Shown here piece by piece: positions 26,797 through 45,963 of a stretch of DNA of 64,000 nucleotides. The notes beneath the pieces were generated by a model. That model was not told the DNA's origin. It made no database searches and worked only from the letters and a program-made list of their open reading frames with translations. Origin of the DNA: Phycisphaeraceae bacterium (lineage in GTDB: Bacteria > Planctomycetota > Phycisphaerae > Phycisphaerales > UBA1924); the NCBI GenBank assembly GCA_019636675.1, contig JAHBXC010000002.1, positions 248,001 through 312,000 on the forward strand. The letters run 5' to 3'. Both the position numbers and the translations under genes were made by a program. Each line of letters starts with the position of its first letter. The stretch's first letter is position 1.

Positions 26797-27447
26797 TCAG
26801 CGTGCGTCCTGGACGACGGCGCGGGTCGCTTCGACGACCTCGGCGATGGGGGCTCGCTTGGTGTAGTCCCAGCTCGACCAGGCGTATCGGATGACTCCGT
26901 CGCGATCGATGACGTAGGTCGCAGGGGCTGGGAGCTCCCAGGACTCGCTGGCGTTGGCCTTCTCGAGGTCGATGCCGTAGCCCTTGTACGTCTTCACGGT
27001 CTTGTCGTCGAGGGTGAACGCGAGTCGGAAGGCGCGGCTGACATCGCCGGTGGAGTCGGAGAGGATCGTCGTGCCGGGCGTGTGCTTGGCGCCGGTCTTC
27101 TGCGCGAGGTCGGGCTTCTCCATCGTGATGGCGACGAAGGCGGCGCCCATCTTCTCGATCTCGTCGATGCGCTTCTCCCACTTGGCGAGGTCTTTGGTGC
27201 AGTAGGGGCACCACCCGCCGCGGTAGAAGGTGAGGACGACGGGGCCCTCGGCCCAGAGGGATTCGAGGTCGATCTCTGCGTTCTCGACGGTGCGGAGCGC
27301 GACGCCGGCGGGGGCCTTGTCGCCCACGGCGAGGCCGGGCTTGTCGGTCTCGGGGTCGAGGTTTCGCGTGTTCGGGGCGGCGGACTGCGCGATCGCGAGC
27401 GACGAGACGCTCAGCGCGAGCGCGGCGGTTAGAACCTTGGTCAGCAT
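26797..27447 (-). CDS. Exported peroxiredoxin-like (AhpC/TSA) protein
   Basis: The 216-residue protein has a signal peptide (MLTKVLTAALALSVSSLAIA, cleavage near residue 20). GGAG lies 10 bases upstream. The thioredoxin fold shows FYRGGWCPYCTKDLAKWEK, with a CxxC pair in the place of the peroxidatic cysteine, and the later PATYVIDRDGVIRYAW strand. This is the Prx-like/redoxin group. It would reduce peroxides or shuttle thiols in the periplasm. It stands between hutH and hutU with its own terminator, so it is inserted in the hut cluster without an evident functional link. Confidence 0.85.
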   Translation of the reverse strand: MLTKVLTAALALSVSSLAIAQSAAPNTRNLDPETDKPGLAVGDKAPAGVALRTVENAEIDLESLWAEGPVVLTFYRGGWCPYCTKDLAKWEKRIDEIEKMGAAFVAITMEKPDLAQKTGAKHTPGTTILSDSTGDVSRAFRLAFTLDDKTVKTYKGYGIDLEKANASESWELPAPATYVIDRDGVIRYAWSSWDYTKRAPIAEVVEATRAVVQDAR

Positions 27448-35134: not shown

Positions 35135-36199
35135 ATGACGAAGATCACGAAAGAGCAGCTCCTGTCCCGTCCCGTCGAGCACATCGACGTCGCGTCCTTC
35201 GACGCGCGCCCGATCGTCGACGGCTTCCGCCAGACCGCCTTCCAGGCGCGCAACCTGGCCCGCGCCACCGACATCTACAACATGATGCTCGCCGACAAGG
35301 ACTGCGCGGTCATCCTCACCCTCGCCGGGTCGATGGTCTCCGCCGGGCTCAAGAAGGCCATCGTCGCCATGATCGAGAACAACATGGTCGACGCCATCGT
35401 GTCGACCGGCGCGAACATCGTCGACCAGGACTTCTTCGAGGGCCTGGGCTTCCGCCACTACATCGCGCAGTGGTCCCCCGAGAACCCGCTCGTCACCGAC
35501 GAGCAGCTCCGCGATTTCCACATCGATCGCATCTACGACACACTGATCGACGAGGACGACCTGCGCGCGTGCGACGATGTCACCCGCGACATCTTCGACT
35601 CGCTGCCCCCGGGCGGGTACTCCTCGCGCGAGCTGATCGACGCGATGGGCGCCTACCTCGCGGACAAGCACCCAGAGATCCCCGGCGTCGTGCTCGCGGC
35701 CCATCGCAAGCGCGTGCCGATCTTCGTCCCGGCGTTCAGCGACTGCTCCGCCGGGTTCGGCATCGTCATGCACCAGATGGCGCGCCTCGACCAGCCCCAC
35801 CTGATGTTCGATTCGGGCAAGGACTTCCGCGAGCTCACGCAGATCAAGCTGCTCAACCCCAGCACCGGCCTGCTCATGCTGGGCGGGGGCGTGCCCAAGA
35901 ACTTCGCGCAGGACATCGTCGTCGCGGCCGAACTCCTCGGCAACGACGCGCCGATGCACAAGTACGCGGTCCAGCTCACCGTCGCCGACTCGCGCGACGG
36001 CGCGCTCTCGGGGTCGACGCTGCGCGAGGCGTGCTCGTGGGGCAAGGTCGACACCGTGCACGAGCAGATGGTCTTCGGCGAGGCCACCACCACCTTCCCG
36101 ATTTTGGCCAGCGACGCGCTGCACCGGCGCAAGTGGGCCGGTCGCCCCGAGCGCCGCTTCAACGAGCGACTGGGCGCCGCCCTGGCCGGCAAGGCCTGA
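35135..36199 (+). CDS. Deoxyhypusine synthase-family enzyme, probably polyamine-forming
   Basis: The 354-residue protein starts MTKITKEQLLSRPVEHIDV, with GAGG 9 bases upstream; a GTG further upstream is less likely. NAD-binding motifs include TLAGSMVSAGLKKAIVAMIE and TGANIVDQDFFEGLG. The catalytic lysine of the family is kept in SWGKV (about K304). Bacteria lack eIF5A, so the substrate is not the eukaryotic one. Related bacterial enzymes form homospermidine or act on agmatine derivatives; following speA directly, the latter is attractive. Exact product unknown. Confidence 0.87.
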   Translation: MTKITKEQLLSRPVEHIDVASFDARPIVDGFRQTAFQARNLARATDIYNMMLADKDCAVILTLAGSMVSAGLKKAIVAMIENNMVDAIVSTGANIVDQDFFEGLGFRHYIAQWSPENPLVTDEQLRDFHIDRIYDTLIDEDDLRACDDVTRDIFDSLPPGGYSSRELIDAMGAYLADKHPEIPGVVLAAHRKRVPIFVPAFSDCSAGFGIVMHQMARLDQPHLMFDSGKDFRELTQIKLLNPSTGLLMLGGGVPKNFAQDIVVAAELLGNDAPMHKYAVQLTVADSRDGALSGSTLREACSWGKVDTVHEQMVFGEATTTFPILASDALHRRKWAGRPERRFNERLGAALAGKA

Positions 36200-45040: not shown

Positions 45041-45090
45041 GTGGGAAAAAGGTGTTGCAGAGTGGGGGAAAGTGGGGTAGAGTGCTCTGG
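45041..45090 (+). promoter_or_regulatory. mraZ promoter with TGGG direct repeats (MraZ-box-like operator)
   Basis: TTGCAG (45055-45060), a 17-base spacer and TAGAGT (45078-45083) form a promoter-like pair. Across it run GTG-headed units at 45041, 45052, 45062, 45072 and 45082. They are about 10 bases apart, three with TGGG (45042, 45063, 45073). MraZ is known to bind TGGGN repeats with 5-base spacers, which is exactly the 45063/45073 pair. Confidence 0.7.
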
Positions 45091-45112: not shown

Positions 45113-45577
45113 GTGCTCTTTACAGGGACCTACGAGCACACCGTCGACGAGAAGCAGCGGCTGGCGATCCCGTCGGAGATCCGCTCGCAGTGGAGCGACA
45201 GCGAAGACGGCGGCGCCTTCTTCGCGGTTCCCTGGCCTGGCGGCCTGCTCCGGCTCTACACCGAGACCCACTTCCGCAAGCTCGCGTCCAGTCGCTCCCT
45301 GACTCTGACGCCCGATGAGGACGAGGCGGAACTCCAGGCCACTTTGTTCGGCATGGCCCGGCGCCTCGAGATGGATAAGGCCGGAAGAGTCCGGCTCACC
45401 GACGACCACCTGACCCTCGCGGGTCTGACCAAGGAAGTGGTGCTCGTCGGCGCAGGAGACCGCCTCGAGATCCGCGATCGGGCCGAATGGAAGGCCAGCG
45501 TCGCGGACCGACTGAACCAGCTGCCGGAGCTCATCCGGCGCATCAACGCCAGGAAACAGCCCGACCATCGAGGCTGA
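45113..45577 (+). CDS. mraZ: Transcriptional regulator MraZ
   Basis: The 154-residue protein starts with GTG at 45113 (VLFTGTYEHTVDEKQRLAIP), the standard MraZ opening. Two SpoVT/AbrB-like halves are seen, the second around RLEMDKAGRVRLTDDHL. MraZ normally heads the division/cell-wall cluster and represses it. Here no rsmH or ftsL follows; the next 417 bases hold only a structured non-coding segment, and the mur genes lie on the opposite strand facing it. Upstream TGGG repeats suggest autoregulation. Confidence 0.95.
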   Translation: MLFTGTYEHTVDEKQRLAIPSEIRSQWSDSEDGGAFFAVPWPGGLLRLYTETHFRKLASSRSLTLTPDEDEAELQATLFGMARRLEMDKAGRVRLTDDHLTLAGLTKEVVLVGAGDRLEIRDRAEWKASVADRLNQLPELIRRINARKQPDHRG

Positions 45578-45963
45578 CACCCCGACCTCCACACGCCCGT
45601 CGTCGCGGAACACGCGACACGAGGCCTTCAAGGACGACCCGGCCCGGCGCAAGGACGCGCAGGGCAGACTCGCAAGGACGCGAGTCGAGACCGATGCCCG
45701 ACGGGTGTGCGTGGGCCACCCTTCGGGCGACTGACTGATCGACTCCGGCGCGCACGGACGCGCGACCTCGGACGACCTCGCGAGATTCACGACGCACGGA
45801 CGCGTCAGACGGATCGAACGAGGACAACCCAACGACGCGGCCCGGCGGGGCGCTCCCGTCTGCCCCGCCGCGCCGCGTCAAGGGTCACCCGGTCCGGGAC
45901 ACCCGGAGCATGTTTCAGACCACGCCGCGACGGAATCCCCTTCCGTCGCGGCGTTGTATTTTT
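45578..45963 (+). ncRNA. Candidate CsrB/RsmZ-like CsrA-binding RNA (or structured mraZ 3' UTR)
   Basis: The 417 bases between mraZ and greA hold no credible gene. By eye the plus strand folds into hairpins at 45602-45618, 45623-45644, 45647-45660, 45667-45686, 45696-45728, 45749-45764, 45791-45806 and 45843-45870, ending in the terminator at 45922-45963. Five of them (45623, 45647, 45667, 45749 and 45791) present the hexaloop AAGGAC or ACGGAC closed by C-G, that is CANGGACG each time. This is the known CsrA/RsmA site form. I saw no promoter of its own, so it may be part of the mraZ message. Confidence 0.6.
45922..45963 (+). terminator. Terminator of the mraZ/structured RNA transcript
   Basis: A perfect 14-bp stem (45922-45935 with 45941-45954) with a 5-base loop TCCCC is followed by TGTATTTTT. 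It is the strongest hairpin in the window and points in the plus direction. Confidence 0.95.

Follow-up and report, generated by a model that had tools for sequence, protein, structure and literature searches.

Analysis of the DNA downstream of mraZ revealed an array of predicted CsrA-binding hairpins on the plus strand (45578..45963), probably the mraZ 3' UTR, which is conserved across the order Phycisphaerales. Judged from its sequence and predicted fold, the array is very probably bound by CsrA, and titration of CsrA by the mraZ 3' UTR is the best explanation for it and probably its main role. In favour of titration are the location of several sites past the stop codon, their varying number and position and the fact that no conserved downstream gene was found. 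The conservation of the array across the order suggests that Phycisphaerales probably soak up CsrA with RNA; the fuller proposal, that in these bacteria the mraZ-linked RNA is a CsrA sponge working beside the protein antagonist FliW, stands for us at even chances.

The mraZ locus and its hairpins

The window, which is the whole 64-kb stretch of DNA that was analysed (G000:C2:248001-312000), lies on an 827-kb contig, read whole, of a 3.3-Mb genome. Within it, mraZ (45113..45577, plus strand; GTG start, 154 aa; Pfam PF02381, E 1.7e-18), whose best relatives within the family show up to 64% identity, is flanked upstream by a flavin-reductase-domain gene on the opposite strand and downstream by a convergent greA. 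In many bacteria rsmH comes after mraZ; in this genome the two genes are 0.5 Mb apart. The predicted mraZ promoter (45055..45083, plus strand) combines TTGCAG and TAGAGT with a 17-nt spacer carrying two GTGGG repeats that resemble MraZ boxes. A double GTGGG box was found 5' of mraZ in 54 of 110 Phycisphaerales loci and the entire −35/box/−10 pattern in 50 of the 110, with 0.3 expected from shuffles in each case, and we infer that the repeats are MraZ boxes and that the element functions as a promoter. Autorepression via MraZ boxes is described for MraZ of E. coli (PMC8475190, citing Eraso 2014).

The 386-nt segment downstream of mraZ (45578-45963) folds at −207 kcal/mol (z = −7.1), and its first predicted stem starts ~17 nt past the mraZ stop. 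According to the original prediction, this segment carries five copies of CANGGACG, each presented by a hairpin with a C-G-closed hexaloop. All five copies are indeed found on the plus strand (at 45629, 45650, 45673, 45753 and 45795), but partition-function folding of the full segment upheld only four of the hairpins, with stem-pair probabilities of 0.96-1.0 and a probability of at least 0.99 that the GGA is unpaired. The hexaloop of the first (45623-45644) had a probability of ~0.01, leaving site 1, CAAGGACG (45629..45636, plus strand), as a motif alone with no predicted hairpin. The four remaining hairpins, all on the plus strand, fall into two with the loop AAGGAC and two with the loop ACGGAC. 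The former are found at 45647..45660 (4 bp plus an outer stem; stem-pair probabilities 0.99-1.0) and 45667..45686 (7 bp; stem-pair probability 1.0), with the GGA of the latter 20 nt from the preceding GGA. The ACGGAC loops are found at 45749..45764 (5 bp; 0.96-0.97 in full context) and, 42 nt past that hairpin, at 45791..45806 (5 bp; 0.98-0.99), with the caveat that the interval 45740-45815 excised as a 76-mer preferred a different fold. Hairpin pairs spaced by ~40-50 nt recur in many relatives. Several predicted ANGGAN hexaloop hairpins thus reside in one RNA, as in RNAs that titrate CsrA.

The further strong stems named in the original prediction (45602-45618, 45696-45728 and 45843-45870) were also recovered. 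The stem at 45696..45728 (plus strand; z −3.8 for 45693-45735) lacks an ANGGA loop and is perhaps a spacer, and a long G+C-rich stem (45838..45875, plus strand; z −3.1 for 45828-45875) occupies the interval between the array and the terminator. The segment closes with an intrinsic terminator (45922..45963, plus strand; z −7.1), in which the perfect 14-bp stem that had been predicted is present at 45922-45954, together with a U tract.

The 8-mer CANGGACG is not rare in the window, both strands of which contain 12 copies versus 19 in shuffles, so the significance of the array lies in clustering and structure. This is the only locus on either strand of the 827-kb contig where a 250-nt interval contains three ANGGAN hexaloop hairpins, and a three-site pattern matched only this locus in the 3.3-Mb genome, a search in which the reversed control pattern also matched once. 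The contig's sole other pair of ANGGAN hairpins (at least 4 bp) within 300 nt lies on the minus strand near 35879 of G000:C2.

Conservation of the array in Phycisphaerales

A DNA similarity search with the array in relatives gave no useful match because the stems have diverged, and loci were therefore compared by synteny with mraZ. This gene was located in 153 of 163 family genomes and, for the order as a whole, in 142 of 151 sampled genomes. In total 110 loci were read, 107 of which were long enough for counts in the 350 nt 3' of mraZ. Most relatives (Phycisphaerales and Planctomycetota, mostly metagenome assemblies) carried the array. The 107 loci contained 132 ANGGAN hexaloops with a perfect stem of at least 5 bp, compared to 1.7 expected and a maximum of 5 in shuffles; none was found on the reverse strand or at +700 to +1050 in the same set, and the 350 nt ahead of the mraZ stop contained 11. 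When stems of at least 4 bp were accepted, 178 ANGGA hexaloops were found on the mraZ strand and none on the reverse, with at least one hairpin in 87 and at least two in 55 of the 107 loci; the number of perfect hairpins per locus was mostly 1-4. Among 141 GGA hexaloops, position 1 was A in 134, position 2 was free and position 6 was a pyrimidine (C or U) in 118; the loop was closed by a C-G pair in 110. By sequence, the loops are of the CsrA/RsmE consensus, with an ANGGAN loop of the type that RsmE binds (PMC7652899).

To avoid the selection for pairing that is built into the hairpin finder, a second set of sites was defined purely by loop motif. The array region contained 444 of these, 54% of them with stems of at least 3 bp, compared to 6% for the contig and 4% for the reverse strand; the corresponding densities of ANGGA were 12.6, 2.3 and 1.6 per kb. 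Pairing at flanking pairs 1-5 exceeded permutation with z values of 7.6-14.5, which overstate the evidence since related genomes are not independent, a reservation that leaves the strand and shuffle controls unaffected; a genome control sample showed no such excess. The type of pair at a single stem position varied among G-C, C-G, A-U, U-A and G-U. Global alignment with RNAalifold recovered just the two anchored hairpins, because the spacing between hairpins varies. The original prediction would have been refuted by stems that are not kept in relatives and named conserved ANGGAC loops as support; stems and loops are both conserved, with covariation in the stems.

A CATCAGTGATCGG-like element that seems to occupy a hairpin loop was also found to be conserved among or after the hairpins, from ~+160 to +510 past the mraZ stop (loci L107-L118, L164, L167, L170, L171 and L178), with weaker GATCGG versions elsewhere.

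CsrA, FliW and the case for titration

The genome contains csrA, on which the prediction had likewise depended, in three copies. Residues R6, V42 and R44 are kept in all of CsrA1-3, and CsrA with an intact RNA-binding surface is accordingly predicted for this genome; across the order, each of the 251 sampled genomes had a csrA match. The csrA1 gene adjoins fliW and an apparent flagellar gene, and csrA2 is found elsewhere. FliW is encoded in 112 of 121 genomes of the order. The nine genomes without a fliW match (G022, G191, G197, G201, G215, G225, G227, G231 and G239) contain only weakly scoring, csrA2-like csrA genes, and arrays are still present in three of them (G022, G197 and G215; loci L021, L086 and L094), which suggests that csrA2 is a partner of the array, with orthology judged from scores alone. 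As separate observations, an ANGGAN hairpin, ccgtcACGGATgacgg, is located ~60 nt upstream of csrA1, between fliW and csrA1 (L001, reverse strand), and is a candidate for CsrA autoregulation, and csrA3 adjoins a DUF3102 gene with phage-family matches (both in L003:93-1917), possibly making it a phage-borne CsrA.

We propose that the mraZ transcript would begin at the promoter with MraZ-box-like repeats and stop at the terminator (45922-45954), giving it a 3' UTR of ~380 nt. Each of the ANGGAN hexaloop hairpins in this 3' UTR, four or more in number, would dock one face of a CsrA dimer. Whenever mraZ is transcribed, this 3' UTR, either intact or released as an sRNA, would bind CsrA and draw it off weaker mRNA targets. 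CsrA activity would thereby be coupled to the expression of mraZ, which MraZ itself probably represses. The original prediction of a CsrA-sequestering RNA, or of an mraZ 3' UTR with that role, thus gains strong support from the presence of csrA and from the conserved, covarying hairpins, with the 3' UTR favoured over an independent sRNA; CsrA binding, sequestration and the link to MraZ autoregulation are what we infer from these features.

The main rival to titration is that CsrA acts in cis on the mraZ mRNA, through the 3' array and, in some families, through a hairpin immediately 5' of the ribosome-binding site, controlling translation or stability such that the array would serve mraZ with no global titration. 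This explanation ranks as the main rival because a CsrA-type hairpin lies ~25 nt upstream of mraZ in all seven loci of one family, f5. Such hairpins were found in 14 of 110 loci overall, compared to 1.1 expected, raising the possibility of CsrA control of mraZ translation, and their arrangement in f5 recalls the CsrA bridge between hairpin and Shine-Dalgarno sequence in glgC (PMC7652899). The loci with an ANGGAN hairpin in the 5' UTR are L100-L106 (f5), L020, L042, L049, L051, L059, L114 and L118. The continued physical linkage of the array to mraZ is also consistent with control in cis. However, a 5' hairpin is missing from most loci that carry a 3' array, and translational control has no need of several sites past the stop codon, leaving control in cis as the sole role of the array unlikely, though it is the strongest of the competing explanations. 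The two roles are not mutually exclusive, since a target mRNA of C. jejuni also titrates CsrA (PMC4894983), and both may hold here.

Comparison of the array with known systems revealed features of several of them. No Rfam family reached its gathering threshold in the window, and the best match under permissive settings was RsmW, at 16 bits versus a gathering threshold of 52 (E 5.2). Judged by its features, the array would act like a CsrA sponge, yet it is outside every Rfam CsrB/Rsm family and lacks a GacA-type box. Like CsrB/CsrC, RsmX/Y/Z and RsmW of Gammaproteobacteria, it combines multiple C-G-closed GGA hexaloops with an intrinsic terminator, and its structure is conserved while its sequence is poorly so. 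Unlike these sRNAs, it is attached to mraZ, shows no promoter of its own and no GacA/UvrY-type box, and belongs to another phylum; it also has fewer sites than CsrB, which contains 22 GGA. The flaA mRNA of C. jejuni, which is both CsrA target and sponge with sites in its 5' leader (PMC4894983), is similar in being a protein-coding mRNA with adjacent ANGGAN hexaloops in a genome with fliW, and the GGA spacing is close in both, 20 nt for one pair in the array and 21 nt in flaA (PMC4894983). In contrast to the two sites in the flaA leader, the array has at least four, located 3' of the coding sequence of a cell-division regulator and conserved across an order. The fimAICDHF leader of Salmonella, described in PMC4894983 as the 5' leader of a fimbrial operon that titrates CsrA and works beside CsrB/C, is likewise an untranslated part of an mRNA with the function proposed here, although the array is unrelated to it in sequence and place.

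Our literature search, which had subscription papers and preprints outside its reach, found nothing on such an RNA in Planctomycetota. CsrB-type RNA antagonists are described as widespread in Gammaproteobacteria, the main group in which such an arrangement has been described so far, and which to our knowledge is without fliW; some other bacteria use the protein FliW as CsrA antagonist. According to a 2020 review, it 'remains to be determined' whether any species uses FliW and sRNAs jointly (PMC7652899). The occurrence of fliW, csrA and a conserved putative CsrA-binding RNA together across the order makes this question testable. If titration is correct, mraZ, a conserved gene of uncertain purpose, would gain a second output via its 3' UTR, and CsrA control would have an RNA arm with an origin separate from that of the CsrB family of Gammaproteobacteria. 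If, in addition, MraZ represses its own transcription, a cell-division regulator would be coupled to the CsrA-controlled lifestyle.

Transcription unit and distribution outside the order

The strong terminator, the compact structured segment and the variable number and position of the hairpins would also fit a separate sRNA gene of the CsrB/RsmZ type that has a promoter of its own and lies 3' of mraZ by chance. We consider such a gene improbable: the first predicted stem follows the mraZ stop at a distance of only ~17 nt, a consensus scan (weak in G+C-rich DNA) gave no σ70-like promoter match for the array, and the conserved promoter sits ahead of mraZ. No GacA/UvrY box (TGTAAGN6CTTACA, up to 3 mismatches) was found near the locus, the sole match in the window, at 27026, being at chance level. 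Furthermore, terminators were detected in 47 Phycisphaerales loci, and in only one of these did an intrinsic terminator precede the first hairpin. Since a conserved promoter lies before mraZ and a terminator hardly ever separates this gene from the hairpins, the array looks like an mraZ 3' UTR, and read-through from mraZ is the simplest reading.

In other orders of the class (40 further loci), hairpins, where present, mostly occupied the long interval separating mraZ from rsmH, as would be expected of a leader or attenuator of downstream rsmH that became a relic where mraZ moved away. This origin is very improbable and was rejected, since rsmH was never found 3' of mraZ in Phycisphaerales, where the array nevertheless persists and is richer than in the other orders, and since no ANGGAN hairpins were found upstream of this genome's rsmH. 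The array stayed with mraZ after mraZ parted from rsmH, indicating that it follows mraZ and not rsmH. DNA-level inverted repeats or chance structure, which a G+C-rich, palindromic region might suggest, have a negligible probability and are refuted by strand bias (hexaloops on the mraZ strand alone, 178 versus 0) and by covariation, the stems including G-U pairs and not being reproduced by shuffles.

Because csrA is universal in the order, the presence of csrA was compared to that of the array across the class. In f16, a csrA-less sister family, none of six genomes had a csrA match and none of six loci had hairpins (at least 4 bp) 3' of mraZ, whereas 18 of 35 loci from the other families of the class outside the order had at least one hairpin and about half had none; two genomes of this latter set are incomplete and yielded no csrA. 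As f16 is a single clade, this comparison supports, without proving, a dependence of the array on csrA. The absence of hairpins from about half of the loci in the other families counts against titration, as does the modest number of sites next to CsrB. No array was found in a Scalindua genome, a Brocadiaceae genome or three Nitrosomonas-labelled contigs. Of 246 genomes sampled in the phylum, 152 gave no csrA match. Within the same phylum, nine genomes of the family f49 (G507, G530, G550, G584, G628, G655, G667, G697 and G707) showed an unusual expansion of csrA, with 9 to 17 matches per genome.
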